Below the pieces are notes generated by a model. It did no database searches. It was given only the letters and a program-made list of their open reading frames with translations, and had not been told where the DNA came from. A stretch of 64,000 nucleotides of DNA, taken from the NCBI RefSeq assembly GCF_016863315.1, contig NZ_BOOQ01000009.1, forward strand, positions 248,001 to 312,000, in the 5' to 3' direction. The position numbers and the translations under genes were made by a program. Position 1 is the stretch's first letter, and each line of letters begins with the position of its first letter. Positions 5,747 to 60,545 of the stretch are shown piece by piece. Origin of the DNA: Planotetraspora silvatica. GTDB lineage: Bacteria; Actinomycetota; Actinomycetes; Streptosporangiales; Streptosporangiaceae.

Positions 5747-5853
5747 GCACGCTTTGGACGGTCTTTGTTCAAGGCCGTTCGACTCGCGGTGCGCGGGAAG
5801 GGGCGAAACCAGGCACTATGGCTGTAGCGACGATCCTGCAGAGAGGAATGCCG

Positions 5854-6456: not shown

Positions 6457-7013
6457 ATCACCTTGGCGAGCGCGTGTCCGCGCTCATCGACGGCGAACTC
6501 GGCCACAGCGAGCGTGAACGGGCGCTCGGCCACCTGACGTTCTGTGCGGACTGCCGTGCGGAGGTCGACGCGCTGCGCGCGCTGAAGAGCCGTCTTCGGT
6601 CCATGGAGCCGCCGGCCATGCCGGCCGACCTGACGATGTCCCTGTTGAGGATGTCGGAACCGGGAGGGCCGCTGCCGCCGCGCATGCGTCCCTTTCCCGA
6701 CCATCCGGCGTTCGCGTCCAGTGGCCTGCCGGGGATGCACGGCATCGCCCCGCTCGACAACCGGCCGGGGCGTCCCAGCGGGTTGTCCGGTCCGGGAAGG
6801 CGGCCGGGCAGGGCCAGGCGCGCCGGATACGTCGCCGTCGGCGTCGCCTCCGCGGCGGTGGCACTCGGGACGATCTTCATGGTCGGTGGGGCCGGTGCCC
6901 ACCAGGATCCGGGTCCCGAGGTGTTGTTCGTACATCCGGCGCAGGACCCGGCGCCCTTCGTGAAGGCGTCGCCGACGCCGTCAGGCAGCGCCAGCCCGCG
7001 GTTCTCCCGCTGA
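6453..7013 (+). CDS. rseA: Zinc-finger anti-sigma factor (RseA-like)
   Basis: 186 residues from GTG 6453, with AGGGAGGG a few bases upstream and a 4-base overlap with sigE. The N-terminal ZAS domain has H27-x3-C31-x2-C34 (HLTFCADC), the anti-sigma zinc motif that sequesters the sigma factor. A Pro/Gly-rich linker (about 70-120) leads to one membrane helix (about 124-147) and a short extracytoplasmic tail. In mycobacteria RseA holds SigE and is removed by phosphorylation and proteolysis under envelope stress; the same logic is inferred here. Confidence 0.9.
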
Positions 7014-7072
7014 CCACGGGAAACGGCATAGCATCAGGCGTTGCCGTCGTCGCGTGAGGAGTGGTTGCCCCG

Positions 7073-8392
7073 ATGACCGATCACACGCGTCCCTCCAGCG
7101 CGTCGGACCGGCCCGAGTTCTTCCCTGTGGGTGAGGAGCCCGGTTGGGGCCCTCCCGGCGGGTCACCGCCCTCGCTGGGCGCGCATGGCATCGGTCAGGG
7201 CTGGGCGCCTCCCACGGCGCCTCCCGCCCTCCTGCCGAGCGGTCCGCCGCCGGCCGGCCCGGTCAGGCCGGCTCCGGCGCGGGCCGGGCTGTTCGCGATG
7301 CTGGCCGTGGTCATCGCGCTGGTCTCGGGTGGAGCGGCGAGTGTGGGCACGTGGCTCCTCACCCGGCCGCCCGCGGGCACCGACCCGGGATACTCCCTGG
7401 CCGCCCCCGCGGCCGTTTCGACGGCCCGTCCGCCCGCGTCCGTGGCGGGCGTCGCGGCCAAGGTGCTGCCCAGCGTCGTTTCCTTGGAGGTCAGGGGCAG
7501 CAGCGAGGCGGGCACCGGCTCGGGTTTCGTCATCAAGGGCGGCTACATCGTGACCAACGATCACGTGGCCGCGGTCAGCGGGCAGGGCGGCGAGATCAAG
7601 ATCCGGTTCAACGACGGCACGTCCGCCGGCGCCAAGATCGTCGGCCGTGATCCCAACTCGGACATCGCCGTGGTCAAGCCAGATGCGGCGGTCACGGCCC
7701 CGGAACTGCCTCTCGGCAACTCCGACAGCGTGGTGGTCGGAGACCCCGTCATCGCCATCGGCTCGCCGCTGGGCCTCGCCGGCACCGTCACCACCGGCAT
7801 CGTCAGCTCACTCAACCGGCCGGTCGAGGCGGGCGGGTCGACCGGGTCCGACTACGCGCTCATCAACGCGATCCAGACGGACGCGGCCATCAATCCCGGC
7901 AATTCGGGTGGTCCGCTGGTCAACGCCTCGGGTGAGGTGATCGGCGTGAACTCGGCGATCGCCGCGGTCGGCGGTTCCCCGGCTCTGGGCCAGCAGACGG
8001 GCAGCATCGGCCTCGGCTTCGCGATCCCCGTCAACCATGTGCGCAGGATCGCCCAGGAACTCATCACCACCGGCGTCGCCAGGACCTCACGGATCGGCAT
8101 CACCATCGATCAGGGTTACCAGGGCGAGGGCGTCAGGATCGCGACCAGGACCGAGTCGGGTGAACCCGCTGTGACTCCCGGCGGCCCGGCCGCCGAGGCC
8201 GGTCTGGCGCCGGGAGACGTCATCTTGGAGGTCGACGGCCAGCCGGTCGGGGGCAGCCGCGAACTGGTCGTCACGATCAGGAGCAAGGCACCGGGAGACA
8301 AGGTGACCATCGGGTTCCAGCACGACGGCCAGATGAAGACGGCCACGGTAACGGTGGGCGCTGCGCCCGTTCCGGCGGTGCGGCCGTCCTGA
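7073..8392 (+). CDS. htrA: Trypsin-like serine protease with PDZ domain, HtrA/DegP-like
   Basis: 439 residues from ATG 7073 (GAGGAG about 10 bases upstream; a GTG at 7061 overlaps that site). A cytoplasmic Pro-rich N-terminus (about 1-70) and one membrane helix (about 72-96) precede an extracytoplasmic protease domain. The triad is intact: His in NDHVAAV (about 163), Asp in NSDIAVV (about 197), Ser in GNSGGPLV (about 278). One PDZ domain (about 335-430) follows. HtrA proteins degrade or refold damaged exported proteins. Position directly after sigE-rseA indicates an envelope-stress role. Confidence 0.93.
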   Translation: MTDHTRPSSASDRPEFFPVGEEPGWGPPGGSPPSLGAHGIGQGWAPPTAPPALLPSGPPPAGPVRPAPARAGLFAMLAVVIALVSGGAASVGTWLLTRPPAGTDPGYSLAAPAAVSTARPPASVAGVAAKVLPSVVSLEVRGSSEAGTGSGFVIKGGYIVTNDHVAAVSGQGGEIKIRFNDGTSAGAKIVGRDPNSDIAVVKPDAAVTAPELPLGNSDSVVVGDPVIAIGSPLGLAGTVTTGIVSSLNRPVEAGGSTGSDYALINAIQTDAAINPGNSGGPLVNASGEVIGVNSAIAAVGGSPALGQQTGSIGLGFAIPVNHVRRIAQELITTGVARTSRIGITIDQGYQGEGVRIATRTESGEPAVTPGGPAAEAGLAPGDVILEVDGQPVGGSRELVVTIRSKAPGDKVTIGFQHDGQMKTATVTVGAAPVPAVRPS

Positions 8393-32177: not shown

Positions 32178-33065
32178 CTACGGCGCGGAGCCTGAGGGCC
32201 CGAACAGGTCGCCGTGCTCCTCCACCCGGGCCAGGACCTCCGAGGCCGTGAACACCAGCCGGCCGGGCTCGTCGCACTTTTCGACCTCGTCCCAGAGAAG
32301 CGGCGTCGACACGGTGGGGAGACTGTTCGCGCGCATCGAGTAAGGCGCCACCGTGGTCTTGGCCGGGTTGTTCTGGCTCCAGTCGATGAATACGCGGCCG
32401 GGGCGGACCTTGCGGGCCATCACGCTCGTCACCAGAGGGTGGGCGCCCTCCAGGCGTTGCGCGAGCCCCTTGGCGTAGTCGGCGGTGCCCGGGCCGCGAT
32501 CCCAGCGTGCATAGAGCTGCATGCCCTTGTTCCCACTGGTCTTGGGGTGACATTCAAGGCCGTCCCGCTCGAGTTCGTCGCGGAGCAGGACGGCGACCCG
32601 GCAGCACTCGACGATCGTGGCCGGGGCCCCGGGGTCGAGATCGAACACGAGCGTGTCGGGCGGCAGCGGATCTCCCTCCACGCCCACCCGCCACATCGGG
32701 ACGTGGAACTCGATGGCCGCGAGGTTCGCGTAGTAGACCAGCGTCGGCAGATCGTCGACCACCGCGAAGTCGATCTTCTCGCGGTTCATCGTGCTGCCCG
32801 GCACGGGAAGCGTGACCTTGCGGACCCACTTCGGGGTGTGGGCGGGGGCGTTCTTCTCGAAGAACGACTGGCGCTCGACTCCGTTGGGGAAACGCTTCAC
32901 GGTCAGCGGCCGGCCATGGAGATGGGAGAGCATGACCGGGGCGATCCGGGTGTAGTAGTCGATGACCTCGGCCTTGGTGAAGCCGCCTGCGGGGTAGAGC
33001 ACCTTGGTCAGGTTGCTCAGGGAGAGCTCCCGGCCGTCGACCCGCACCAGCACCTTCTCTGTCAC
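32178..33065 (-). CDS. LigD-type NHEJ DNA polymerase/primase
   Basis: 295 residues from GTG 33065, chosen for the GGAG just upstream and the 4-base GTGA overlap with the ligase stop. Archaeo-eukaryotic primase-type polymerase domain of LigD: LSNLTKVLYPAGGFTKAEVIDYY, the conserved VKRFPNGVERQSFFEKNAP, catalytic DLDPG (TLVFDLDPG), and SGNKGMQLY. No ligase or phosphoesterase domain is present, so LigD is split. It adds nucleotides or gap-fills at broken ends held by Ku. Confidence 0.92.
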   Translation of the reverse strand: MTEKVLVRVDGRELSLSNLTKVLYPAGGFTKAEVIDYYTRIAPVMLSHLHGRPLTVKRFPNGVERQSFFEKNAPAHTPKWVRKVTLPVPGSTMNREKIDFAVVDDLPTLVYYANLAAIEFHVPMWRVGVEGDPLPPDTLVFDLDPGAPATIVECCRVAVLLRDELERDGLECHPKTSGNKGMQLYARWDRGPGTADYAKGLAQRLEGAHPLVTSVMARKVRPGRVFIDWSQNNPAKTTVAPYSMRANSLPTVSTPLLWDEVEKCDEPGRLVFTASEVLARVEEHGDLFGPSGSAP

Positions 33066-34024
33066 CCCTGCTCCTCTCGCCGTACGTCCGCGGGCACCTT
33101 GTCCGCCCTGATGCCGCGCCACACGGGGTGGCGCAGGCGCCCCTCGTGCGTCCACATCGTGAAGGCGACCTCGCCGACGAGCTCGGGCCTGACCCAGCGC
33201 GCGTCCCTGCTGATCTCCCGTGGAAGCAGCGCGGAGAAGGCGCTCTGCCTGATTTCGAGGGGTTCCAGCAGCCGATGCACGTCATCCAGCATCGCATCGC
33301 TGAACCCGGTGCCGACATGGCCGACGAACAGGAATTCCGACGGCCCCGGCGACGGTCGTCCGTACATGCCGAGGAGCAGCGAGCCGACGCCGCCCGCGCG
33401 GCGGCCCTTGCCGGGGCGCCAGCCGCCGATCACGACGTCCGCGGTGTCGAGGTTCTTGACCTTCACCCACCAATCCGTCCGCCGTCCCGGCCGGTACGGC
33501 GAGTCGAGCCGCTTGGCCACGACGCCTTCGAGGCCCTGCAGGCGGGTGGCCTCCAGCACGTCGGGGTCGCAGGGAAGGTACGGCGGGGCCTCCAGCCCGA
33601 GCGAGTCCAGGAGTTCCCTGCGGTCACGGTAGGGCAGGTCGAACAGCGCGTGGCCGTCCAGATAGAGCAGGTCGAAGGGCATGTAGGTGACGGGCACGAG
33701 GGTGAGGAGCCCGGCGGCCGCGGGGTCGGCCACGTGCATGCGCCGCTGGAGCAGCTCGAAGCTGGGCCGTCCGAGGGCGTCGAAGGCGACGACCTCGCCG
33801 TCGAGGACGGCGCTGCGGCCCGCGAGGGGGGCGACGACCCGCGCGATCTCGGGGTAACGGGAGGTGCAGTCGGTGCCCTTGCGGCCGGTGGCGCGGACAC
33901 CGCCGTCGACGTAGACGATCGCCCGGATGCCGTCCCACTTCACCTCCAGGGCGTACGCGGAACGATCGAGGGGGAGGTCGCCGGCGACCGCGAGCATGGG
34001 TTCGACCGGATATGGCATTGCCAT
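33062..34024 (-). CDS. ATP-dependent DNA ligase, LigD ligase-domain type
   Basis: 320 residues; ATG 34024 or 34018. Motif I KWDGIRA (nucleotidylated Lys about 29), motif III LDGEVVAFD, motif IV LEGVVAKRLDSPY, motif V WWVKVKN, followed by the OB domain ending in WRGIRADK. Seals nicks using ATP. It overlaps the polymerase gene by 4 bases and is divergent from Ku with a 77-base shared promoter region. This gives a complete Ku-ligase-polymerase end-joining set apart from the phosphoesterase domain. Confidence 0.93.
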   Translation of the reverse strand: MAMPYPVEPMLAVAGDLPLDRSAYALEVKWDGIRAIVYVDGGVRATGRKGTDCTSRYPEIARVVAPLAGRSAVLDGEVVAFDALGRPSFELLQRRMHVADPAAAGLLTLVPVTYMPFDLLYLDGHALFDLPYRDRRELLDSLGLEAPPYLPCDPDVLEATRLQGLEGVVAKRLDSPYRPGRRTDWWVKVKNLDTADVVIGGWRPGKGRRAGGVGSLLLGMYGRPSPGPSEFLFVGHVGTGFSDAMLDDVHRLLEPLEIRQSAFSALLPREISRDARWVRPELVGEVAFTMWTHEGRLRHPVWRGIRADKVPADVRREEQG

Positions 34025-34101
34025 AGTGGGTACCTGCCCATGAGGTAAGTCCCTTGAATCCCCCCATGGTGGTATTCGAACACAGAGACGAGAATGTGGT
34101 T

Positions 34102-35007
34102 ATGCGCAGCATCTGGAAAGGCGCCATCTCGTTCGGACTGGTCACCATCCCAGTGAAGTTGTACTCGGCGACCGAGCAGAAGGACGTCACCTTCCACCAG
34201 GTGCATCGGACGGACGGCGGGCGCATCAAGTACCGGCGGGTCTGCACCGTGGACGGCGAGGAGGTGCCGTACGCCGACATCGCCAAGGGATACGAGCTGG
34301 CCACGGGCGAGATCGTGGTGCTGACCGACGAGGACTTCGCCGACCTGCCGCTGACCACCTCGCGGCGGATCGACGTGCTGCAGTTCAGCCCCGCCGACCA
34401 GATCGACCCCATTTACTTCGCCAAGTCCTACTACCTCGAGCCCGACGCCCAGGGGGCCAAGCCGTACGTGCTGCTGCGCGACGCCCTGGAGCGGTCCGGC
34501 CAGGTGGCGATCGTGAAGGTGGCGCTGCGTCAGCGGGAGGCGCTCGCGACGCTCCGGGTCCGTGACGGGATCTTCGTGCTGGAGACGATGCTCTGGCCGG
34601 ACGAGGTTCGAGAGGTCGAGTTTCCGTTCCTGGAGGAGGACGTCGACATCCGGCCTCAGGAGCTCAAGATGGCCGAGTCCCTGATCGAGACCATGGTCGC
34701 CGACTTCGACCCGGGTGAGTATCGGGACGCCTATCGCGAGGCGCTCCAGCAGGTCATCGAGGCCAAGATCGAGGGGAAGGAGGTCGTCGCCGCAGAGGTT
34801 CCGTCCGAGACGGGGCCCGCCGTCGACCTGATGGCCGCGCTGCGCGCCAGCGTCGAGGCCGCGAAGAAAGAGCGGGAGGGAGGCCGGGAGGCGCCCGCCG
34901 CCAAGAGGAAGGCTCCCGGGAAGGCGTCTGAGAAGGCCGCGGAGAAGGCTGAGGAGAAATCTGAGGAGAAGGCGCCCGCGAAGCGGAGGACCCGCCGCTC
35001 GGCCTGA
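34102..35007 (+). CDS. ku: Ku protein, bacterial NHEJ end-binding
   Basis: 301 residues from ATG 34102; earlier ATGs in frame add a non-conserved leader. Ku core: MRSIWKGAISFGLVTIPVKLYSA, KYRRVCTVDGEEVPY, FAKSYYLEPD and LKMAESLIETMVADFDP. The last 40 residues are a Lys/Glu/Ala-rich tail (AKRKAPGKASEKAAEKAEEK), as in the long-tailed Ku proteins of actinomycetes where the tail aids DNA threading. It forms the homodimeric ring that recruits LigD to double-strand ends. Confidence 0.95.
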   Translation: MRSIWKGAISFGLVTIPVKLYSATEQKDVTFHQVHRTDGGRIKYRRVCTVDGEEVPYADIAKGYELATGEIVVLTDEDFADLPLTTSRRIDVLQFSPADQIDPIYFAKSYYLEPDAQGAKPYVLLRDALERSGQVAIVKVALRQREALATLRVRDGIFVLETMLWPDEVREVEFPFLEEDVDIRPQELKMAESLIETMVADFDPGEYRDAYREALQQVIEAKIEGKEVVAAEVPSETGPAVDLMAALRASVEAAKKEREGGREAPAAKRKAPGKASEKAAEKAEEKSEEKAPAKRRTRRSA

Positions 35008-35054: not shown

Positions 35055-35089
35055 GAGGGCTCCGGTGGAAGTGATCCACCGGAGCCCTC
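35055..35089. terminator. Strong hairpin between ku and the small-protein cluster (GAGGGCTCC family)
   Basis: GAGGGCTCCGGTGG (35055-35068), 7-base loop, CCACCGGAGCCCTC (35076-35089): 14 perfect pairs. It lies 48 bases after the ku stop and about 157 bases beyond the stop of the convergent small gene, so it can serve either strand. No T-run on either side. Its arms match those at 35988-36028 and share the outer nine bases with 36761-36792. Confidence 0.7.
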
Positions 35090-35245: not shown

Positions 35246-35557
35246 TCAGCCGACGACGACGTCGGCGTCCGAGTTGCGAACGTTGATGTTGTTCAGCTGG
35301 CGGTGCTCGTTGTTGCGCCAGGTGGAGCGGAACCGGTTGTGGCAGCCACGCGACCAGCCGCGGTGGCAGCCGCCGCCACCGCAGCGGCGGTGGCCGCTGC
35401 GCCAGAAGCCGCCGCCGCCGCAGCCGCCGCCGCCCCAGCTGGAGACAGTGGTCGCGCTCGCGGTCGTGGTGGTGGTGGCAGCGCCGAGCGCGACGGCCCC
35501 ACCGGTCAGCGCCGTGCTGATCGCGAGCCCTGCGATGACGTTCTTGTACTTGGGCAT
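35246..35557 (-). CDS. Small secreted Gly/Cys/His/Arg-rich protein (cluster member A)
   Basis: 103 residues from ATG 35557 with AAGGGGGA 6 bases upstream. Signal peptide MPKYKNVIAGLAISTALTGG continues to a likely cut after TASA (about residue 35). The mature part is rich in Gly with four cysteines (46, 59, 64, 72): WGGGGCGGGGFWRSGHRRCG, CHRGWSRGCHNRFRSTWRNN, then an Asn-rich end. It shares its signal peptide, 5' leader and promoter blocks with the four genes upstream on the same strand but lacks the RDFSLIVTPFQ core of members C-E. No known family recognised; a cell-surface, metal-binding or matrix role is speculation. Confidence 0.72.
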   Translation of the reverse strand: MPKYKNVIAGLAISTALTGGAVALGAATTTTTASATTVSSWGGGGCGGGGFWRSGHRRCGGGGCHRGWSRGCHNRFRSTWRNNEHRQLNNINVRNSDADVVVG

Positions 35558-35778
35558 TGCGTGTCCCCCTTGAAAGGATTCGATTGCCCTTAATCGGCGC
35601 ATTTTCCGTCGAAAGAGAAAATGCCCCTGATAGCCCCTAATGGACTATCTTTCCCGCGCTGAGTTAATTGCCGGAAGAGTCGGATCACAAACGACCGGCG
35701 AGCGCTTTTGATGGCTTATTGTCTCTTTATAACCGAGCATAGACCATTAATGACGTTTTTGTCACGAAATGTCCGATT
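35558..35778 (-). promoter_or_regulatory. Conserved upstream region of small gene A
   Basis: Leader and promoter region, AT-richer than its surroundings, with blocks shared with genes B and E. Moving away from the start codon: CTTTCAAGGGGGA ribosome-site block; hairpin 35629-35649 (8 pairs, one wobble, loop ATTAG on the gene strand); block 1 at 35687-35720 (on + ACAAACGACC, then GCTTTT, then GCTTATT); block 2 at 35760-35778 (on + TGTCA, then ATGTCCGATT). On the gene strand block 1 gives CAATAAGC, a possible -10. The remaining bases to 36219 hold the terminator at 35988-36028 and no ORF I would call. Confidence 0.6.
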
Positions 35779-35987
35779 CAACGAAGCTGATCGAATGTGC
35801 TCCGTCCGTACCGTCCTCTGCGGTGCGTGGAGGCGGGAGGCGGGTGAAACGGCGCGCGGGCCTGAGTGGCCCGCTGGGGCATCGACGCAGCTCCCGCGGT
35901 ATTCCGGGGACCCGAGCGGCTTCGCTGTGCGCCTGGTCCCTCCTGGGCGGCGGGCGGGCTTTCCGAAGGAGCCCGGCGCGCGAAAAA

Positions 35988-36028
35988 GCGAGGGCTCCGG
36001 TGGATTGGTCATCCACCGGAGCCCTCGC
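35988..36028 (-). terminator. Intrinsic terminator downstream of small gene B (GAGGGCTCC family)
   Basis: 18 perfect pairs: GCGAGGGCTCCGGTGGAT (35988-36005), loop TGGTC, ATCCACCGGAGCCCTCGC (36011-36028). The + strand has AAAAA at 35983-35987, so on the minus strand the stem is followed by TTTTT: a classical intrinsic terminator for minus-strand transcripts from gene B, 190 bases beyond its stop. Confidence 0.85.
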
Positions 36029-36219
36029 CTTCGTGCCTGAGCTCGGATATTCGATTGAGAACGTTCTATGAGATAGCGGTCCTTAACGGGACCGCGTCAT
36101 TGAGGCCGACGCTTCACCGCTATGTCGAGAATCGAAATCAGAAGATCCGGGCGAACAGGGCATGCCGCTCGTCGGCTCCCCAACCCTGTCGCCGAAGCTC
36201 ATTCCGGAGCATGTCCGGA

Positions 36220-36447
36220 CTAGCGTCCCCAGTTGAACCGCTTGCAGTCCTTGTCGAACTCCGAGAAGTGGACGAAGGCGTTGTTGGCACCGACGGTGAA
36301 GTTGGTGCAGTCCTCGTCCTGGAAGCGGTTCTCGTGGTCCCAGCCGGTGGTGGCGGCGCTCGCGGAGGTGGCGCCCAGAGCGATGGCACCGCCGGCAAGC
36401 GCCGTGCTGATGGCAAGACCGGCCATGACGTTCTTGAGCTTGGGCAT
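36220..36447 (-). CDS. Small secreted acidic/aromatic protein (cluster member B)
   Basis: 75 residues from ATG 36447, AAGGGGGA site upstream. The signal peptide MPKLKNVMAGLAISTALAGG is almost identical to member A, with a likely cut after SASA (about residue 31). The mature part is only about 44 residues with two cysteines (47, 68) that could form one disulfide: TTGWDHENRFQDEDC, then NNAFVHFSEFDKDCKRFNWGR. It differs from the other mature parts, so only the export signal and control regions are shared. Function unknown. Confidence 0.7.
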   Translation of the reverse strand: MPKLKNVMAGLAISTALAGGAIALGATSASAATTGWDHENRFQDEDCTNFTVGANNAFVHFSEFDKDCKRFNWGR

Positions 36448-36665
36448 TGGGTGTCCCCCTTGAAAGGATCGGTTGCCCTTATTGCGACAATTTCTGAAAC
36501 GAGAAAGAATGTCGCTGACAGCCCCCTAAGAGGCTATCGTCCTGCGCTGTCTAGATTTCCAGCATTCGGGCCATACAAACGACGATCTGGTGCTTTTAGA
36601 TGCTTATTGACAGGCTGTGAACGGCCTTAGACTAATAGCGGTGGATATGTCGCATATGTCCGATT
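36448..36665 (-). promoter_or_regulatory. Conserved upstream region of small gene B
   Basis: Same architecture as gene A: the GATCCTTTCAAGGGGGACAC leader, hairpin 36517-36538 (7 pairs with one wobble, loop TCTTAGGG on the gene strand), block 1 at 36575-36608, block 2 at 36648-36665. The gap between block 1 and block 2 is 39 bases, identical to gene A. The hairpin stem sequence differs from A while pairing is kept. Bases 36666-37028 beyond it hold the hairpin at 36761-36792 and a stretch (36950-36978) similar to 37529-37556; no ORF there looks real. Confidence 0.6.
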
Positions 36666-36760
36666 CGGATCGCGACGACAGGCGGGGGATTGAGGGGCGG
36701 GGGAACGGGCGCGGCGGAGAAGATACGGGCCGAGAGGGCGGGCGCGGTGGAGAAATGGAG

Positions 36761-36792
36761 GAGGGCTCCGCGGACGATGCCGCGGAGCCCTC
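36761..36792. terminator. Hairpin downstream of small gene C (GAGGGCTCC family)
   Basis: GAGGGCTCCGCGG (36761-36773), 6-base loop, CCGCGGAGCCCTC (36780-36792): 13 perfect pairs. Outer arm identical to the hairpins at 35055 and 35988, inner pairs changed on both sides. It lies 237 bases beyond the stop of gene C on the minus strand; no U-run. Confidence 0.6.
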
Positions 36793-37028
36793 GCTCGTTG
36801 TCGTGTACGGAATGCACTCCCTGGGCCGTATGACGCGGCCAGGAAGGCGATGCGGACAGAAGGCACCTGGATTGCGGTTCCAGATCCATTGCGGTCACGG
36901 ACGGCCGTGATGCCCGTCGTGTCCTCTCCTGGTTTTCGTTCTCACCGGCTGACCGAGGTTCATCACAACCGCGATGTCCCCGCCGGTGCGGGACTGACTC
37001 ACTACTGGACGTGCGTCGGACACCCGGG

Positions 37029-37433
37029 TTACGGGACGGCGGTGACCGTCACGGTGACGACCGGAGCGGGCGTTCCGTAGTAGTGGCCCTCGGCCTCCGC
37101 CTTCGACTTGGAGTCGGTGTCCTGCTTCTGCTGCGGGACGGCCTGGTTGTCCGACTTCTGGAAAGGGGTGATGATCAGCGAGAAGTCACGCAGCAGGTGC
37201 TGACGCTGGTGCTGGTGCTCACGCGTGTGCTGGAACTCGTGGTTCCGGTTCCAGTTGCGGTTGTGGTTGCGGTGGCCACGGCCCCAGCCGGAGCCGCCGC
37301 AGCCGCCGCCGCAACCCGTGATGGTGGTGGCGCTCGCGGACGTGCTGGTGACAGCAGTTCCGAGGGCGACGGCCCCACCGGTCAGCGCGGTGCTGACAGC
37401 GAGGATCCCAACGAGGTTGGCGATCTTGGACAT
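37029..37433 (-). CDS. Small secreted His/Asn/Arg/Gln-rich protein (cluster member C)
   Basis: 134 residues from ATG 37433. Signal peptide MSKIANLVGILAVSTALTGG, likely cut after SASA (about 36). The mature part starts with a Gly/Cys knot (TGCGGGCGGSGWGRG), then a His/Asn/Arg/Gln tract (HRNHNRNWNRNHEFQHTREH, QHQRQH). The shared core LLRDFSLIITPFQKSDNQA (about 80-98) follows, then QKQDTDSKSKAEAE and a Val/Thr-rich end. About 60 percent of the mature residues match member E by eye. No known family recognised. Probably transcribed with D and E, since no promoter blocks precede it. Confidence 0.75.
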   Translation of the reverse strand: MSKIANLVGILAVSTALTGGAVALGTAVTSTSASATTITGCGGGCGGSGWGRGHRNHNRNWNRNHEFQHTREHQHQRQHLLRDFSLIITPFQKSDNQAVPQQKQDTDSKSKAEAEGHYYGTPAPVVTVTVTAVP

Positions 37434-37660
37434 ATCTCTTTCCCTTTCATGAGATTGGGCGATCCGTTGCTGCGGCCCGGGCGATGTCAGGGTGCGTGGA
37501 CGTCAGGGAGATGCCTGTGCCCGCTCAGTGACCGTGGTTCCTGGAACCGCGATGTCAGCGAGCACGGCATTCTCCGCTCAGCGACTCCCGCCCCGGATGA
37601 AACCGTGGCGAGCACGCACCCGCACCTCTCAGACCTGGATCAAGACACGACGGGCCTGTA

Positions 37661-38041
37661 TCAGTCCTCGGCTTCAGCCTCGGAGCGCGAGTCGGTGTCC
37701 GACTTCTGCCAGGGCGTGGCCTCGTTCTCGGACGACTGGAACGGCGTCACGATCAGCGAGAAGTCGCGCATGAGGTACTGGCGCTGGAACTCGAACTGGC
37801 GCGCGTGCTGACGCTGACGGCTGTGGTTCCAGTTGTGGTTGCGGTTGTGGTTGCGCCCCTCGCGGACGCACACCGACTTGTGGCAGACGGGCCGCGAGAC
37901 CGAAACCGGAGCCGGGGCCGGAGCGGGAACGCCGCCCATGACGACGGACGCGCTCGCGGAGGTGGCGCCGAGGGCGAGTGCCCCGCCCGACAGCGCGACG
38001 CTGGCGGCGAGAACGCCCATGATGTTGCTGAGCTTGGACAT
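37661..38041 (-). CDS. Small secreted His/Asn/Arg/Gln-rich protein (cluster member D)
   Basis: 126 residues from ATG 38041, AAAGGGAAA site upstream. Signal peptide MSKLSNIMGVLAASVALSGG, likely cut after SASA (about 32). The mature part has a Pro/Ala segment, two cysteines (53, 58: RPVCHKSVCVREG) in place of the Gly/Cys knot, then RNHNRNHNWNHSRQRQHARQ and FEFQRQ. The core YLMRDFSLIVTPFQSSENEA (about 89-108) and WQKSDTDSRSEAEAED follow. It lacks the C-terminal Tyr/Gly extension of C and E. Confidence 0.75.
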   Translation of the reverse strand: MSKLSNIMGVLAASVALSGGALALGATSASASVVMGGVPAPAPAPVSVSRPVCHKSVCVREGRNHNRNHNWNHSRQRQHARQFEFQRQYLMRDFSLIVTPFQSSENEATPWQKSDTDSRSEAEAED

Positions 38042-38293
38042 GTGCTTTTCCCTTTGATGTATGCGTTTCCCCACGCGAAGACGGCTCCACGTCGTTGTGG
38101 AATCGCCGCGGCGAGGGAGAAACAGGAGAGTGGGATGCGGGCGCCGAATTGCGGACGGCCTCCGGTGAATGTGCGCCGTGGAAATCCGCTTGACGATCGC
38201 GAGTTTTCGAAGATGCCCGTGACCGCCAGGTGTGGCGTCCCCCGGACGGGGTGAGCCTTACGGCGTCGGCGGCCACGGGCACTTCATTCGGTG

Positions 38294-38330
38294 CTCACGT
38301 CCCTGACCATCCGGTCAGGACGCCCGTGAG
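38294..38330 (-). terminator. Hairpin after small gene E
   Basis: Inner stem CCTGACC-ATCC-GGTCAGG (38302-38319) and outer stem CTCACG/CGTGAG (38294-38299 with 38325-38330) separated by an internal loop. Starts 12 bases beyond the gene E stop on the minus strand. No U-run, so it may attenuate rather than end transcription into D and C. Confidence 0.5.
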
Positions 38331-38341
38331 TCGGCGGCGTA

Positions 38342-38755
38342 TTAGCCGATGACGGGCGGCGCGACCGGAGCGGTCGTGCTCGTGCCGGCGCCCGGGCCGT
38401 AGTACTTCTCCTCGGCCTCAGCGTTCGACTTGGAGTCGGTGTCCTGCTTCTGCCACGGGGTGGCGTCGTTGTCGCTCTTCTGGAACGGCGTCACGACCAG
38501 GGTGAAGTCGCGCAGCAGGTACTGGCGCTGGTGCTGGTGCTGACGCTCGTGCTGCCACTGGTGGTTCCGGTTCCAGTTGCGGTTGTGGTTCCGGTGGCCA
38601 CGGCCCCAGCCGCCGCCGCCGCAGCCGCCGCCGCAGCCCATGACGGTGGTGGCGTTCGCGGTGCCGGCGGTGACAGCGGTACCGAGGGCGACGGCCCCGC
38701 CGGTCAGCGCGGTGCTGATGGCGAGGACTCCGACGAGGCTCTTGAAGTTGGGCAT
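38342..38755 (-). CDS. Small secreted His/Asn/Arg/Gln-rich protein (cluster member E)
   Basis: 137 residues from ATG 38755, AAGGGGGAA just upstream. Signal peptide MPNFKSLVGVLAISTALTGG, likely cut after ANA (about 35). The mature part has the Gly/Cys knot MGCGGGCGGGGWGRG, the tract HRNHNRNWNRNHQWQHERQH and the core YLLRDFTLVVTPFQKSDNDA (about 79-98). Then come WQKQDTDSKSNAEAEE and a Pro/Gly/Thr-rich end. First gene of the presumed E-D-C transcript; the only one of these three with the conserved promoter blocks. Confidence 0.77.
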   Translation of the reverse strand: MPNFKSLVGVLAISTALTGGAVALGTAVTAGTANATTVMGCGGGCGGGGWGRGHRNHNRNWNRNHQWQHERQHQHQRQYLLRDFTLVVTPFQKSDNDATPWQKQDTDSKSNAEAEEKYYGPGAGTSTTAPVAPPVIG

Positions 38756-38983
38756 TTCATTTCCCCCTTGAAAGGACTTACGTCCTATGCGCTGACATTG
38801 TCCAAATAGCTTGGAAAATGTTCTTCTGGCGACCCTTAGTGGGTCTTCCCTGCATTGTCTTGTTTTCCGCGTCAGCGGAGCGACAAACGGCGATCGGCGG
38901 CTTTTGCCATCTGCTTATCTCTTTATTGACGACGTTGAACCATTTCTGATCATTTTCATCGGAAATGTCATTTATGTCGGATT
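38756..38983 (-). promoter_or_regulatory. Conserved upstream region of small gene E
   Basis: Same order of elements as genes A and B: TCCTTTCAAGGGGGA leader, hairpin 38831-38845 (GACCC-TTAGT-GGGTC, 5 pairs, quite different stem sequence), block 1 at 38883-38919, block 2 at 38966-38983. Spacing start-to-hairpin is about 75 bases and hairpin-to-block 1 is 37 bases, against 71/37 in A and 69/36 in B. Bases 38984-39131 contain no further feature I can name. Confidence 0.6.
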
Positions 38984-54769: not shown

Positions 54770-55825
54770 GTGACAGACAGTCGGGAACTGCCCGCCTATG
54801 TGTACGACCTGGCCGGGCTGGACGCCCATGCGGGAGCCGTACGGGCCGCGCTGGAAGGGGTCGAGCTCTACTACGCCGTGAAGGCGAACCCCGATCCCGA
54901 GCTGCTGCGGGTGCTCGCCCCCCACGTCGACGGATTCGAGGTCTCCTCGGGCGGGGAACTCGCGCACGTCCGCGGGCTGTTCCCCGGCGCCCAGGTCGCG
55001 CTGGGCGGCCCCGGCAAGACCGACGCGGAGCTGTCCGCCGAGGTCACCCGGCTGCACGTCGAGAGCCCCGGTGAGTTGCGCCGGCTGCTCGCGTCCGGAC
55101 GGCCGGCCGATGTGCTCCTGCGGGCCAACCTCGATCTCCCGGTCGACGGGGCCTCACTGGTCATGGGGGGAGGGGCGACGCCGTTCGGCATGGATCCGGC
55201 GGGCGTCGCCGAGTGCGTCGACCTGCTGGACAGGCAGGACACCGTTCGTCTCCGCGGGCTCCACGCCCACCTGGCGAGCGGGCTCGACGCCGCAGGGTTG
55301 CTGGAGCTGGCCGCCGGAGTGCTCGACTACGCGCGCGGCCTCGGTCTCACCGAGATCAATCTCGGTGGTGGCATGGCGGTGTCCTACCGTGACCCGGGCG
55401 CGCTGTTCGACTGGCACTCGTACGGCAAGGGCCTCGCGGCGCTGCGCCGTCCGGGAGAGGTGCTGCGGGTCGAGCCGGGCCGCGCCCTGACCGTCTACTG
55501 CGGCCGCTACGTGACCCGGGTGATCGACGTCAAGCGGGTGCACGGCGAACTGTTCGCCGTCGTGGCGGGAGGCACACACCACCTGCGGACCCCGGCCACC
55601 AAGGGCCACGACCAGCCGCTGGCGACGGGGGAGCCCGGCGAGCCCATCACGATCGTCGGGCAGCTCTGCACGCCGAAGGACGTGCTCGCCCGCAGGGTGC
55701 CGGTGCGGCTGCAGGTGGGCGACGTCGTCGAGTTCGCCATGGCCGGGGCCTACGCGTGGAACATCTCCCACCACGACTTCCTGATGCACCCCAAGCCCGC
55801 CTTCCACTACCTCCGGGGCGAGTAG
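54770..55825 (+). CDS. Fold-III PLP-dependent decarboxylase, siderophore-associated
   Basis: 351 residues from GTG 54770 with CGGAGG upstream. Alanine-racemase-type barrel: PLP Lys in YYAVKANPDPEL (about 40), DGFEVSSGGEL, HAHLASGLDAAGLL, NLGGGMAVSY, VEPGRALTVYCG. C-terminal active-site Cys in GQLCTPKDVLA, and GAYAWNISHHDFLMHPKP. Relatives are ornithine/diaminopimelate decarboxylases and SbnH/AcsE-type enzymes that decarboxylate citryl-amino-acid intermediates in NIS siderophore pathways. Adjacency to two IucA/IucC genes favours that role. The 3' end overlaps the convergent synthetase by 19 bases. Confidence 0.87.
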   Translation: MTDSRELPAYVYDLAGLDAHAGAVRAALEGVELYYAVKANPDPELLRVLAPHVDGFEVSSGGELAHVRGLFPGAQVALGGPGKTDAELSAEVTRLHVESPGELRRLLASGRPADVLLRANLDLPVDGASLVMGGGATPFGMDPAGVAECVDLLDRQDTVRLRGLHAHLASGLDAAGLLELAAGVLDYARGLGLTEINLGGGMAVSYRDPGALFDWHSYGKGLAALRRPGEVLRVEPGRALTVYCGRYVTRVIDVKRVHGELFAVVAGGTHHLRTPATKGHDQPLATGEPGEPITIVGQLCTPKDVLARRVPVRLQVGDVVEFAMAGAYAWNISHHDFLMHPKPAFHYLRGE

Positions 55826-57504
55826 GCGACCAGCGGGTTGGCCACGGTGGTGTACCCCGCCGCCCTGTCGGCCGAGCGGGTCCAGCGGATGCCCAGGTTG
55901 GCCTTCGCCGGCAGCGGCGCGCCCCCGAGCAGCTCCGCCAGCGGGGCAGGCCGTCCGCGCCGCCCGGCGTAGTCCTCCAGGACCTCGTGGGCGACGTGCC
56001 ACAAGTCGTCCAGCAGCCGGTCCGTCCCGGCGACCGTGGCCGCCACCTCGGCGAGATGGTTGACCACGAGGCAGTAGACGACCCGGTTCCAGCCTTGGCC
56101 GGCCTCGTAGGTCACCGCCTCGGCCACCCGGTCCGGCAGGCCGGTCAGGTCGTGGCGGCCGGCCACGAGCTTCGTCCCCTCCAGATCGCGGAAGATCGCC
56201 TCCATGGGGAGCCCGTCGGCGCCGACGCCGATGAGGACGTTCTGCACATGAGGTTCGAGGACGACCCCGTGCGTGAAGTACGCGTCGAGCACCGGCGGAG
56301 CCACCCGCTCCACGTAGGCCCTCCACCAGCCGAGCGGGTCCTCCCACCGGCGGGCTCGCACGGCCTCGGGCAGGTCGTCCCCGGCGGTCGCGAACGCCCC
56401 GGCGAGGATCGGGGTCACACCAGGCCCGCACTCCCGCCACGGGCCGGAACGGATGATCACCCCGAGCGCCTCGAACAGCCGGGTCCCGAGCGCCGCCGAA
56501 CGGTAGCCGGGCTCGGGAAGCCAGCGCGTGCCCGGGAAGTCGGCGGCCAGGCTGCCGAAGATCGGGCGGAGCCGCTCGGTGAGCTCGACGGCTCCGATCA
56601 GCTCGTACCAGGCGTTCTTGCGGACGCAGTTGGTGATCCGCACGTCGAGGCTGAACTTCAGGCAGTTCTCCGTGACGGCGTCGTACACCGTGCGCACCGA
56701 CGATGTGGGGGTCACCGGGCGGGAGCCGTACCCGAGGTCGATGAGCCGTCCGTCGGCGAGCGGGTCCCGCAGGTCGTCGGCGACGAGCTCGAGTTGCCAG
56801 GGATGTGCGGGCAGGAGCGTGTACCCGCGGGGGGCGGCGCCGAGCCTGTCGAGCGGCGTGGTGTCCCCCTGCTCCGCCACGAGATCGGCGCGGACGCCGA
56901 GCAGGCGCAACGGGAACTCGGCGCGCGCCTCCGGGGCGTACCGGGTCAGTCCTGGGCCGGTGTGCGCCTTCGGCGAGGGGTGGAAGGGATGGCCGTCGAC
57001 GAGCGACTGCTCGGACGTCAGCCACGGGTCCGACGGCGGGCGGGTCCGCGCACGGGCGGTGAGGAGTTCCGCCATGGCGTCGCGGCTGGCGGCGACCTGC
57101 GCGGCGAACTCGTCGTTACCCCCGTGCCCGCTCCCGCTCCCGTTCCCGCGGCCGTTCCCGTTCCCGTGTGCGGACGTGCGGGCGGGCGCGCGGTCGATCG
57201 CGCGGTCGATTGCGCTGCCGGCCTCCTCCAACTCGCGCTCGGTGAGTTCGACGAGCAGGTCGGAGGTCAGGGGCAGCCACGACCCGTCCGACAGCCACTC
57301 GGCCCGGCCCTCGAAGCGCAGTGCGATGCCGCCGTGCGCGCGCACGCGGATCAGGGTCCCCGCGACCTCCAGCAGCAGGTACGGCTCGGCCGGCCACACC
57401 TGGCCGCGCGGGCCGCTGAGCTCCCGGGCGCAACATCGCAGCAGCGCGCCCAGCGTGACCTCCTCGGCCCTGGAGACGTGCGGGTCGAGCAGGAGGCGGT
57501 CCAT
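55807..57504 (-). CDS. NRPS-independent siderophore synthetase, IucA/IucC family (1)
   Basis: 565 residues from ATG 57504 (AAAGGGG upstream; GTG 57531 possible). NIS synthetase motifs: VDGHPFHPSPKAHTG (about 165-180, ATP phosphate loop), KFSLDVRITNCVRKN (about 286-300), LEPHVQNVLIG (about 421-431), then FRDLEG. They ligate citrate-type carboxylates to amines or alcohols via an adenylate. A Gly/Asn/Ser repeat (HGNGNGRGNGSGSGHG, about 113-128) is an unusual loop encoded by a 6-base tandem repeat. It lies 207 bases downstream of the second synthetase, separated by the 53-bp repeat array. Confidence 0.9.
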   Translation of the reverse strand: MDRLLLDPHVSRAEEVTLGALLRCCARELSGPRGQVWPAEPYLLLEVAGTLIRVRAHGGIALRFEGRAEWLSDGSWLPLTSDLLVELTERELEEAGSAIDRAIDRAPARTSAHGNGNGRGNGSGSGHGGNDEFAAQVAASRDAMAELLTARARTRPPSDPWLTSEQSLVDGHPFHPSPKAHTGPGLTRYAPEARAEFPLRLLGVRADLVAEQGDTTPLDRLGAAPRGYTLLPAHPWQLELVADDLRDPLADGRLIDLGYGSRPVTPTSSVRTVYDAVTENCLKFSLDVRITNCVRKNAWYELIGAVELTERLRPIFGSLAADFPGTRWLPEPGYRSAALGTRLFEALGVIIRSGPWRECGPGVTPILAGAFATAGDDLPEAVRARRWEDPLGWWRAYVERVAPPVLDAYFTHGVVLEPHVQNVLIGVGADGLPMEAIFRDLEGTKLVAGRHDLTGLPDRVAEAVTYEAGQGWNRVVYCLVVNHLAEVAATVAGTDRLLDDLWHVAHEVLEDYAGRRGRPAPLAELLGGAPLPAKANLGIRWTRSADRAAGYTTVANPLVAYSPRR

Positions 57505-57572
57505 GGGTGATGTGCCCCTTTGCATGGTCACGGATCGGGGAAGGCCAGGTCGGGCGGCAAGCCGCCGAATTC

Positions 57573-57703
57573 GTGCATGATCACGACCGGAGTCGCCGCA
57601 GGCCGGCGGGCATGATCGCGAGAGTGTGCATGATCACGCTCGGGGTTGTCGCAGGTCGACGGGCATGATCACGAAGGTGTGCATGATCACGGCCAAGGGG
57701 GTG
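57573..57703. repeat. 53-bp tandem repeat array, copy at locus 2
   Basis: GTGCATGATCACG starts at 57573, 57626 and 57679, again exactly 53 bases apart. Two full units both contain CGCAGG, CGGGCATGATC and CGA near the same offsets, and a partial third ends in GGCCAAGGGGG like locus 1. It occupies most of the gap between the two IucA/IucC genes, so it would be transcribed within that operon. Confidence 0.88.
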
Positions 57704-57711
57704 GTGGGGGG

Positions 57712-59367
57712 TCATGGGCGGAGGTAGTTGGGGCCGGTTATGCCGTAGAACTTGTTGATGTCGGCGGCTCCCGACCTTCGCTTGTCCACGAGGGTTCCGG
57801 CGACGACCATCGACTTGCCGATCAGCCGGGCCGAGTCGAGGGTCCTGGCCCGCAGGAGCCGCGCCATCGGGTCGTCGCCGTAGGGCTCGAGCGCCGCCGA
57901 CAACTCGTCCCTGATCAGCGCGGACGCCGAGGAGTCGGGGCCGGCCGCGCCCAGGGCCGGGAACACGATCGCGGCGGCGGCCAGGTGCAGCGTGATGGTC
58001 ACGAAGACGTCGGCGAGCGCATGCGGGTCGTCGGTGAGCATGCGCCGGTCGGAGAAGGCGGGCGTCTCGATCCCGGCCGCGCCCAGGAGACCGGGGGACA
58101 CGAGCAGGCCGTCGTTGTCCTTCAGCAGCAGCCGCATCGGCCCGCCGCCGAAGACGAGCGCCAGGTTCTGCTGGTGGGCCTCAAGGGCCATGCCGTACCG
58201 GACGAACAGGCAGGTGTTCCAGGACAGGAGCACCGACAGGTAGTCGCGCAGCAGCGCGCGCACGTCCCCGCCGTAGTGGCGGTCGGCGAGGTCGTGGAGC
58301 ACGAGTCGCCTCCCGTCGCCGTCCGGCCAGGGGGCGAGGAGGGACGCCACGGGCACGATCTCGCCCTCGGGGAGGTCCCGGATCAGCCAGCCGAGGTACT
58401 CGTGGCCGGCGTGGCCGTAGGTCTGCTCGCCGGCCGGCGAGACCCGCGCGGCGGGCTCCCGGGCGATCACCTCACGCAGGAGCGACTCGGCGAGCGCCCC
58501 GTCCCCGAGCGTGGCCGGCTTGATCGACCGCCGGTTGAGCAGCCCCAGGGTGCTCGTCGCCAGGGGCAGCTTGAGGTGGGTCCGCTCGTCGACCTCGACC
58601 GTGCGCATGGAGAGGGTCGGGCGGACCGTCAGATGCGGCTTGGTTCCCATGACGACTCCAGGAAGGCCCTCGGTCACCGGCGCGGTCAGCGGATGGACGG
58701 GGAACGGCACATGGGTGGCGGCGAACCGCTCGGGGAGGCCGATGTCGCCCGCCCCCGGCCACCAGTCCGGCAGTCCGATGTCGCCCGCCCCCGGCCACCG
58801 GCCCGGCAGTCCGGCGCCGGACAGTGTGACGCGCTCTCTGGGGACCGCCGCCCAGGCCAGGTCGAAGGAGGGGGCGAACTCGGGCGCGTGGGCGAGAAGG
58901 TCCGCCTCCGAGACGCCGAGACGGCACCGGGCCGTGGGATAGATCGGATGGTCGACGGTCGCGGCCAGCGCCTCGTAGAAGAGGAGTGTGCGCTCCCGGC
59001 CGCGCAGCCGGGCCGCGACCTCCGCGCGGTGGCGGTCATGGAGCACCAGCGCGGCCAGCGCCTCGTGGCACTCCCTGGTGAAGGCCGCGACCCCGGGGGC
59101 GTCGGCGGGGTCGGCGACCACGGCGAGGGTGTGCAGCACCTCCGCGAGGGTCAGTCCGCCGTTCTGGCCCGCCCTCCCCTCGGCGACGGCGAAGTCCTGG
59201 AACGGAGAGCCGACGGCCAGTCGCACCCGCCTGCCGGAGGCGAGGACGACGGCGACGCCGTCCTTGTCGCTCGTCAGGCGGGACGCGATGCTCGCGTAGT
59301 CCTCCCGGAGCAGGGCGTCCAGGACGCGGACCGCAAGGTACGTCTCCCTGCCGCGCACCTCGGTCAC
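57712..59367 (-). CDS. NRPS-independent siderophore synthetase, IucA/IucC family (2)
   Basis: 551 residues from GTG 59367, which overlaps the TGA of the ATP-grasp gene (GTGA). Motifs: VPFPVHPLTAPVTEG, the nucleotide site THLKLPLATSTLGLLNRRSI (about 264-283), and LEAHQQNLALVFGG with LLLKDND (about 388-415). The N-terminal region is more diverged than in copy 1, as expected for a different NIS type. A 36-base in-frame tandem duplication at about 58740-58811 repeats the 12-residue segment GLPxxWPGAGDI. Confidence 0.88.
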   Translation of the reverse strand: MTEVRGRETYLAVRVLDALLREDYASIASRLTSDKDGVAVVLASGRRVRLAVGSPFQDFAVAEGRAGQNGGLTLAEVLHTLAVVADPADAPGVAAFTRECHEALAALVLHDRHRAEVAARLRGRERTLLFYEALAATVDHPIYPTARCRLGVSEADLLAHAPEFAPSFDLAWAAVPRERVTLSGAGLPGRWPGAGDIGLPDWWPGAGDIGLPERFAATHVPFPVHPLTAPVTEGLPGVVMGTKPHLTVRPTLSMRTVEVDERTHLKLPLATSTLGLLNRRSIKPATLGDGALAESLLREVIAREPAARVSPAGEQTYGHAGHEYLGWLIRDLPEGEIVPVASLLAPWPDGDGRRLVLHDLADRHYGGDVRALLRDYLSVLLSWNTCLFVRYGMALEAHQQNLALVFGGGPMRLLLKDNDGLLVSPGLLGAAGIETPAFSDRRMLTDDPHALADVFVTITLHLAAAAIVFPALGAAGPDSSASALIRDELSAALEPYGDDPMARLLRARTLDSARLIGKSMVVAGTLVDKRRSGAADINKFYGITGPNYLRP

Positions 59368-60545
59368 GCGATCGTCCAGGGCCGGAGTTCGCGGAAGGAG
59401 TCGACGGCGGCGTCCACGGTGACCTGGTCGGGGCCGATCGCCCGGACGATGCCGAGGTAGTCCCTGTTCGTGTGGGTCACCTCCACCCGGTCGCCGATCG
59501 CGCGCAGCGGCCGGTGCCAGAGCCGGACCCCGGCCGTGTCGCCGGGTGACTCGTCCGGCGACACGGCCGACGGCGCCGCCGTGATGACGCCCGACCGGTC
59601 GGCGATCAGGCTGACCGCCGTGCCGAACAGGTCGTCCTGCGGGCCTGCCCGGCCGCCGAGCGTGTCCAGGGGTTCGCCCGCGTGGACGCGCAGGACCCAT
59701 TCGTGCAGTGGCACACCGACGAGGTCGCCGAGCAGGAAGTCACAGTTGTCGCCGATCAGCCGGTAGTTGACCTCCACGATGCGCGGCCCGTCCTCCGTGA
59801 CCATGTACTCCGTGTGACACACCCCGAAGCCGGCGCCGATCGCGTCCAGGGCGGCGGCCACGTGCGTCACGTGCTCGCCGCCGGGATCGGGCTGCCAATC
59901 CAGGCGCTCCTCGACGAAGTGCGGCAACGGGCCGAGTGTGGTCCTGAAGCCGCCCAGGACGCGGAGCGTCCGCCCGTCGCCCAGTGTCTCCAGCGTGTGC
60001 AGACGGCCGTCGAGGAACTCCTCCGCGACCAGGACGTCGCCGGGCCGCCGCTTCCTGATCTCGGAGACGGCCGCGGCCAGTTCGTGGACGTCCGCGGCGA
60101 GCATGACGTCCTCGCTGGCCACGCCCATCGCCGGTTTCACGACGACCGGGTACGGCAGGGCCGGCGGCAGGTCGCCCCCCGGCGGGAGCCGTACGGACCG
60201 GACGGTCTCCACCGGCGCGAGACGGCGGCGCGTGAGCGCCTTGTTCTTGGCGGTGACGCAGGCGCGCCAGTCCTTGCCCGGCAGGCCGAAGTAACCGGCG
60301 GCCAGCGCGGTCTCCGCCTGGAGATGGTCGGAGTTGGAGAAGACGACGTCGGGCCGATGGTGACCGGCGATGACGTCGATCACCGCGCGGGGGTCGCGCA
60401 CGTCGGTCTCGATGGCCTCATGGTCCGGATATCCGCCCGGCTGGTCGGTCAGGACGGTGACGTCCCACCCCAGCGCGGCGGCGGCGGGCAGGAAACCGTC
60501 CATCACGGAGTCGGTCGGGTTGAGCGCCGTGAGGTAGAGCCGCAC
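59364..60545 (-). CDS. ATP-grasp enzyme of the siderophore operon
   Basis: 393 residues from ATG 60545 with GGAGGA 5 bases upstream. N-terminal Rossmann-like domain (MRLYLTALNPTDSVMDGFLP), then ATP-grasp: NKALTRRRLAP, PYPVVVKPAMGVASEDVML, VLVAEEFLDG and RIVEVNYRLIGDNCDF with the metal-binding Glu/Asn. A C-terminal domain follows (about 300-393). Carboxylate-amine ligase activity is expected, probably attaching an amino acid to the siderophore backbone. First gene of the iron-box-controlled operon, coupled to the next synthetase. Confidence 0.88.
   Translation of the reverse strand: MRLYLTALNPTDSVMDGFLPAAAALGWDVTVLTDQPGGYPDHEAIETDVRDPRAVIDVIAGHHRPDVVFSNSDHLQAETALAAGYFGLPGKDWRACVTAKNKALTRRRLAPVETVRSVRLPPGGDLPPALPYPVVVKPAMGVASEDVMLAADVHELAAAVSEIRKRRPGDVLVAEEFLDGRLHTLETLGDGRTLRVLGGFRTTLGPLPHFVEERLDWQPDPGGEHVTHVAAALDAIGAGFGVCHTEYMVTEDGPRIVEVNYRLIGDNCDFLLGDLVGVPLHEWVLRVHAGEPLDTLGGRAGPQDDLFGTAVSLIADRSGVITAAPSAVSPDESPGDTAGVRLWHRPLRAIGDRVEVTHTNRDYLGIVRAIGPDQVTVDAAVDSFRELRPWTIA

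Follow-up and report, generated by a model that had tools for sequence, protein, structure and literature searches.

A covarying leader RNA and a modular family of small secreted proteins in Planotetraspora silvatica, possible parts of a surface-coat regulon of Streptosporangiaceae

Introduction

What holds together a cluster of small secreted proteins that belong to no recognisable family, and what such proteins do for the cell, are the questions raised by a locus in the soil actinomycete Planotetraspora silvatica (Streptosporangiaceae). The locus, 35246..38755, lies in a 64,000-nt stretch of contig NZ_BOOQ01000009.1 (248,001-312,000), which is referred to here as the window and to which all positions refer, and it consists of five minus-strand genes, A to E. 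An original prediction, made from this DNA, described their products as an exported set with nearly identical signal peptides, diversified after duplication, and suggested surface, matrix or metal-binding peptides.

Rodlins and chaplins are reported to form an amyloid coat on aerial hyphae (PMC5314377, PMC3079736, PMC4255298), and rodlins were reportedly not obvious in morphologically complex actinomycetes outside Streptomyces (PMC4255298). At the locus described here, E, B and A are each preceded by a conserved leader with covarying stems, and C, D and E encode a module that is also fused to larger proteins of different families. The proposal that the locus is part of an RNA-controlled surface-coat regulon of the Streptosporangiaceae, in which the module joins the coat, by assembly or by docking, and brings cargo to it, is in our judgement evenly balanced between right and wrong.

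The five genes and their products

All five open reading frames were present in a check of the window.

38342..38755, minus strand, gene E: 137 aa; signal peptide, GCGGGCGG, alternating Asn/Gln tract, RDF module and acidic tail
37661..38041, minus strand, gene D: 126 aa from the corrected start; signal peptide, Pro/Ala/Val stretch, alternating tract and RDF module
37029..37433, minus strand, gene C: 134 aa; layout as in E
36220..36447, minus strand, gene B: 75 aa; mature part short and acidic, with a single Cys pair; no RDF module
35246..35557, minus strand, gene A: 103 aa from the corrected start; Gly/Cys/Arg-rich mature part, no RDF module

The signal peptide is of a conserved Sec type, as judged from its pattern, and is all that A and B share with C, D and E. 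The last three have in common two blocks, RDF(S/T)L(I/V)(I/V)TPFQ and DTDS(K/R)S-x-AEAE, and GCGGGCGG is common to C and E. These blocks are as first described, and so are the lengths of C, E and B. The starts of A and D were moved, A to 35557 (103 rather than 118 aa) and D to 38041 (126 rather than 137 aa), because the conserved signal peptide begins there and, for A, because the leader ends at the same ATG.

The gene order E-D-C-B-A is retained in all four other genomes labelled with the same genus (P. mira, P. kaengkrachanensis, P. phitsanulokensis and P. thailandica). In Planotetraspora sp. A-T 1434 (L100), for which the matched genome is labelled as another genus, the family genes are arranged differently. 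The cluster is not a chance arrangement, since its order recurs in all four genus genomes and the P. silvatica genome has 11 matches to A2, a profile built on the mature part.

A structured leader upstream of E, B and A

A conserved leader of about 178 nt is found upstream of each of A, B and E, running to the start codon and including the ribosome site. This region before the start stays conserved between copies that diverge elsewhere. Two covariance models, R1 and R2, locate the leaders, and the parts of the E leader are given below them.

38753..38930, minus strand, leader of E: 178 model positions, ending on the ATG; R1 201.4 bits, E-value 2.8e-53 (this leader is itself a seed member); R2 182.2 bits
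36445..36622, minus strand, leader of B: R2 96.4 bits; R1 41.3 bits over 36445-36611
35555..35734, minus strand, leader of A: R2 112.1 bits; R1 58.8 bits
38856..38930, minus strand, 5' block of the E leader: conserved sequence with no sign of folding (mean z -0.28, 60 non-redundant leaders)
38787..38855, minus strand, stem P0: arms 38852-38855 and 38787-38790, closing P1 and P2; 77.2% of cells paired
38828..38849, minus strand, stem P1: inner helix 91.6% of cells paired, outer two pairs 70.3%
38795..38821, minus strand, stem P2: 88.7% of cells paired, both-side changes at 10 of 10 pairs
38774..38785, minus strand, stem P3: GGAC-GUAA-GUCC; three pairs 87.9% paired, the fourth 63.3%
38763..38776, minus strand, alternative hairpin UCCUUU-CAA-GGGGG over the putative ribosome site, predicted by RNAalifold

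No leader was found at C or D in the R2 search of the window, even with filters off. The 5' block, about 75 nt long, reads GUCAAUAAAGAGAUAAGC..CAAAAGCC..CGUUUGUC..GGAAA..AAGACA and is followed by a 3' part with P0, P1, P2, P3 and the ribosome site. It is likely to be a promoter/start region, or else unpaired RNA. Two candidate features of this block were dropped after inspection by eye, a CAAA/UUUG stem with uncompensated G-to-A changes and a WhiG-type promoter with -10-like letters that are not conserved. The 3' arm of P3 overlaps the strand that may mask the putative ribosome site.

Covariation was scored on a 16-row MAFFT alignment; seed A5 had been obtained from the 20 rows of A4 by removing five (four with a shorter P1 loop, and L096) and adding one. 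The score was 0.309, with a shuffle mean of 0.213 and none of 500 shuffles as high, and did not exceed 0.125 when the structure was slid along the alignment. The number of paired cells and the number of cells changed on both sides each lay above every shuffle. A covariance model built from the 16 rows gave 113 matches at an E-value of 0.01, with 58 sources searched. Over 107 distinct leaders, whose alignment was fitted to the model and whose copies are relatives, the score rose to 0.421 vs 0.216 shuffled (slid, at most 0.110). Both-side changes then occur at all 26 pairs, a count also reached by 8 of 500 shuffles, and at 6 of 6 pairs in the inner helix of P1. When column pairs were ranked independently by covariation, seven of the nine strongest belonged to P0, P1 or P2, and pair 79-141 of P0 was third. 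Many lower-ranked pairs fall outside the structure and look like the product of relatedness.

RNAalifold run on a first MAFFT alignment of 48 leaders returned only 7 pairs (-1.87 kcal/mol), because the hairpin loops differ in length. Applied to 14 Microtetraspora leaders from outside the seed, it predicted P1-type pairs, P2 and the ribosome-site hairpin; this is a close set, with both-side change at just 1 of its 23 pairs. Folding energies were compared using leaders pre-selected by the sequence pattern of the 5' block (89 of 130, reduced to 60 non-redundant). The 3' 118 nt of these had a mean z of -1.77, with 47% below -2, vs a mean of -0.63 and 15% in 60 random stretches.

In 99 of 107 leaders, one pyrimidine arm can enter either of two mutually exclusive hairpins, one over the ribosome site and one just upstream of it. 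Shuffling of the upstream 30 nt reduces this to 48.9 ± 5.2 (maximum 66). The ribosome-site hairpin by itself is available in 100 of 107, vs 66.8 in the control. With compensated stems directly upstream of coding regions, the leader appears to belong to the general kind of cis-regulatory structured RNAs. None of 16 leader sources matched Rfam 15 at the gathering score, and permissive scans of the same release gave either nothing or sub-threshold, unrelated families lying outside the leaders.

Distribution of the leader

The P. silvatica genome has 11 leaders by R2, every one directly upstream of a family gene. Two of these precede collagen-like genes on contigs C68 and C12 (E-values 5.5e-4 and 9.7e-4). 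The family genes of P. silvatica number at least 13: A, B and 11 that encode the RDF module. R2 matches were detected in 67 of 200 sampled Streptosporangiaceae genomes, representing 17 of 68 genera, and in 11 of 61 and 6 of 197 genomes of an order and a class sample, respectively. In these two samples no match fell outside the Streptosporangiaceae, at strict filters by which weak matches are lost.

The DNA downstream of 64 leader hits, from 41 selected sources, was translated, and in 62 cases it encodes a signal-peptide protein or the beginning of one; among the 62 are two truncated where the locus stops and two, L008 and L009, that lack an ATG at the model start. The exceptions are L170, where what follows is not a gene, and one hit in L175 that runs off the locus.

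The signal peptide, joined to mature parts of other types, spreads more widely than the RDF module. Up to seven genes of the signal-peptide family lie within 8 kb in Microtetraspora L104, and Streptosporangium has Gly/His-rich forms with the family signal peptide. Tandem leader-bearing secreted genes were seen in Microtetraspora L104, L106, L110 and L112, with tracts that end in VINNIRV or similar and no RDF block. In Microbispora, leader-bearing Asn/Trp-rich proteins adjoin RDF genes (L101, 6290 and 7455; L103, 6535 and 7729).

The RDF module and its fusions

In C, D and E the module consists of a tract with Asn or Gln at every second residue and mostly basic residues between, followed by LLRDFTLVVTPFQK. 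Besides its 11 places in P. silvatica, profile A2 matched 26 of 297 sampled Streptosporangiaceae genomes (6 of 68 genera). A class-wide sample gave matches in 5 of 296 genomes, all of them Streptosporangiaceae, a family whose share of the 296 was not counted.

The alternation was measured on 83 distinct tracts (129 of 173 proteins matched the profile and 87 tracts could be delimited), which are related and so not independent. Asn/Gln recurs at lag 2 in 481 cases vs 256 ± 11 in shuffles and is adjacent in 88 vs 265 ± 11. The residue between drifts among His, Arg, Lys and Trp while the alternation is kept, as in NHNRNWNRN of Planotetraspora and NKNKNKNKN of Microbispora. His, Arg and Lys make up about 40% of the tract, and the RDF block is better conserved than the tract preceding it. 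The estimated mature pI of C, D and E is 8.4-9.2, with cleavage sites guessed from A-x-A.

Forty further loci, picked mainly for long open frames, yielded 41 module proteins of 132-622 aa. Searches of Pfam at an E-value of 0.001 identified a beta-lactamase fold (serine hydrolase) in 15, where the name denotes a fold and does not imply activity, collagen in 4, including L202, which is under the curated cut-off, and Exo_endo_phos (nuclease) in 2. No further Pfam family was found in the 41 at this threshold. Leaders precede 33 of the 41, and 26 of these leaders end in frame with the chosen start. In L177, L180, L181, L182 and L186, a C-terminal domain of about 450 residues stands behind the RDF module; it has no Pfam match (L182 and L177) and no NCBIfam match (L182).

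An AlphaFold2 model of E, made with 22 relatives, had a mean pLDDT of 50.5 and a pTM of 0.16, with no residue at 70 or above. One of its helices covers residues 8-14, within the signal peptide.

Selection on genes and signal peptides

For C, D and E, whole-gene dN/dS against four relatives is 0.26-0.73; the mature parts of A and B are considered below. Substitution counts are small throughout. The signal-peptide dN of A is 0 in three comparisons and 0.013 in one, and that of B is 0, 0, 0.013 and 0.149. In A and B the mature peptide turns over fast, and the export signal of A barely changes.

Compared with two neighbouring genes, dS is lower in A and E, and in B in 3 of 4 comparisons. For A it is 0.107-0.144 vs 0.22-0.56 in the neighbouring genes in the three more distant genomes. 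It is not lower for D against L088 and L089, nor for C against L081.

Comparison with known families

The absence of a recognisable family stands, as none of the five proteins has a Pfam or NCBIfam match at the curated cut-off and a profile search of solved structures in the PDB gave no match. Syntaxin_2 (E-value 0.0063), T7SS_EccA (0.018) and MAP_0585_fam (0.0013) were far under their cut-offs, look like composition noise and were set aside.

The set resembles the Streptomyces rodlins RdlA/RdlB and the chaplins in being made up of small secreted paralogues of sporulating actinomycetes. It had been held distinct from chaplins, and indeed no PF03777 match was found in the five proteins at E-values up to 10 (HMMER filters drop most above about 0.1), whereas chaplins are separately present in the same genomes. 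They were found in all 19 genomes queried, with 8 matches in that of P. silvatica, and a role of the set as chaplin replacement is rejected on this ground. Chaplin repeats in the genomes queried are mostly in single long frames rather than several small genes; in P. silvatica, one frame of 684 aa (G000, contig C47, 49154-50518) holds all eight matches. As to rodlins, the five proteins have no Pfam or NCBIfam match at the curated cut-off, and no rodlin model was used by name.

In the BclA-type exosporium proteins of Bacillus, a short N-terminal module that is common to varied bodies, including collagen-like rods, is the proposed surface address. The RDF family is similar in that one N-terminal module stands on bodies of different families, collagen-like rods among them, which makes it a candidate addressing module of the exosporium type. 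It differs in having a Sec-type signal, by its pattern, before the module, and a shared RNA leader. Unlike the hosts of BclA-type proteins, these actinomycetes are not known to form endospores.

Covarying upstream stems and a possible alternative pairing at the ribosome site are likewise features of riboswitch-like leader RNAs, but here there is no Rfam 15 family, and the downstream genes encode secreted proteins. Leader, coat protein and address module are each of a known kind. Searches of Pfam, NCBIfam, Rfam and PDB sequences turned up no described family to which the leader or the module belongs. Among the literature matches listed, which leave most subscription journals uncovered, there was no paper on the leader or the module.

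Transcription units and neighbouring genes

Inverted repeats with arms of 13-21 nt are located 3' of C, B and A.

36761..36792, minus strand, inverted repeat GAGGGCTCCGCGG/CCGCGGAGCCCTC behind C, the likely end of unit E-D-C
35985..36031, minus strand, inverted repeat behind B with 21-nt arms, from a repeat search
35055..35089, minus strand, inverted repeat behind A with 15-nt arms, from a repeat search

As leaders sit only on E, B and A and hairpins stand behind C, B and A, three transcription units, E-D-C (with E heading first), B and A, are the simplest and likely reading. Scans for sigma-70 promoters and terminators gave nothing convincing, and none of the three inverted repeats was among the calls of the terminator scan of the region.

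The genes that adjoin the cluster at 32178-35007 are presumably Ku-like and LigD-like end-joining genes. Elsewhere in the window, we take 5818-8392 to be a sigma-E-like/HtrA-like set and 54770-60545 a siderophore synthetase set of the NIS type, both ordinary-looking. The names are based on translations of the open reading frames.

Interpretation

In the model that we propose, a leader-bearing unit would begin with an unstructured, promoter-like 5' block, followed by the P0 junction closing P1 and P2, and by P3, the 3' strand of which may pair with the ribosome-binding site instead. Most likely the leader would set the timing or strength of translation. The short members probably form an extracellular coat, or adhere to one, via the module, and the longer module proteins, most of which bear the leader, would bring hydrolases, nucleases and collagen-like rods into it. 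The coat may be that of spores or sporangia. A and B would be leader-bearing accessory secreted peptides with no assigned role. The Asn/Gln alternation is suggestive of a functional amyloid, although the low-confidence model is helical at the tract. A more specific version is that the leader is a new class of RNA that controls, as a shared translational switch, an entire coat regulon of about a dozen genes per genome in spore-forming Streptosporangiaceae, and that alternating Asn/Gln followed by RDFTLVVTPFQ forms a new polar-zipper module that assembles into the coat carrying hydrolases, nucleases and collagen rods; this we consider doubtful, and rather unlikely as a whole.

Several findings weigh against a coat regulon under RNA control. 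The case is drawn from sequence. On the 16-row alignment, the number of pairs with both-side changes was reached by 20 of 500 shuffles and that of further pair types by 200 of 500. The first 75 nt of the leader have no folding signal, the upstream hairpin by itself (102 of 107) is barely more frequent than in its control (98.9), the fourth pair of P3 fails in 36 of 98 sequences and the third in 26 of 102, and the P0 pairs fail in 8 to 33 sequences each. Seven of the 33 leader matches at module proteins are out of frame with the chosen start, and 8 of the 41 proteins have no match. The mature parts of A and B are little constrained, with dN/dS of 1.1-1.4 in 6 of 8 comparisons (the others being 0.21 for B and, with zero synonymous changes, undefined for A). 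A different coat protein, the chaplin, already exists in all the genomes queried. Finally, the AlphaFold2 model of E draws residues 57-80, the tract, as helical and has no strands. The model is too weak to decide the matter but, if anything, tells against a beta ladder in the monomer, and the probability given to our reading was lowered for this reason.

What the leader does may be simpler than switching. It could be a fixed stabiliser of mRNA and enhancer of translation, its stem-loops shielding abundant coat mRNAs from decay, and this we hold to be a serious possibility, if short of probable. The structure is conserved, the 5' block, a possible seat of a ligand core, gives no sign of folding, and the low dS of A and E relative to the two neighbouring genes fits strong expression. 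C and D, however, are not consistently low in dS, and the mutually exclusive hairpins with one common arm at the ribosome site, at about twice their frequency in shuffled controls, tell against a plain stabiliser. That the conserved upstream region is entirely DNA, a promoter with operator palindromes, is improbable. Palindromes can serve as operators, and the 5' 75 nt are conserved without a folding signal, but the arms vary among copies while pairing is kept, which would not be seen with an operator of fixed sequence, and the element reaches the start codon with the ribosome site inside it.

For the module, the competing account is an anchor to the wall or to polyanions, in which the basic tract, perhaps helical, would attach to wall polymers or extracellular DNA without forming fibres. 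We regard this as possible, though on the doubtful side. The basic residues of the tract, the high estimated pI, the enzyme fusions, which suit a simple anchor, and the modelled helix are in its favour; against it, the Asn/Gln alternation goes far beyond what composition demands, and conservation is stronger in the RDF block than in the tract. Metal binding, as raised in the original prediction, draws on the His and Cys content and on His/Gly-rich relatives behind the same leader. It is now very improbable, since in Microbispora the His of the tract is largely replaced by Lys, Arg, Glu or Ser and the alternation stays, and fusions to hydrolases, nucleases and collagen do not suggest metal scavenging. 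What that prediction said of an exported set, duplicated and diversified, is borne out, with a common upstream element at the heads of E, B and A. It did not include the structured leader, the probable transcription units, the paralogues scattered elsewhere or the fusions to cargo.

The covarying leader on most members of the secreted set offers a direct handle on surface building in morphologically complex actinomycetes other than Streptomyces, and identification of the signal to which the leader responds would make the control of the surface testable. Should the module indeed address its cargo to the coat, it would be a natural display tag for hydrolases, nucleases and collagen-like rods.

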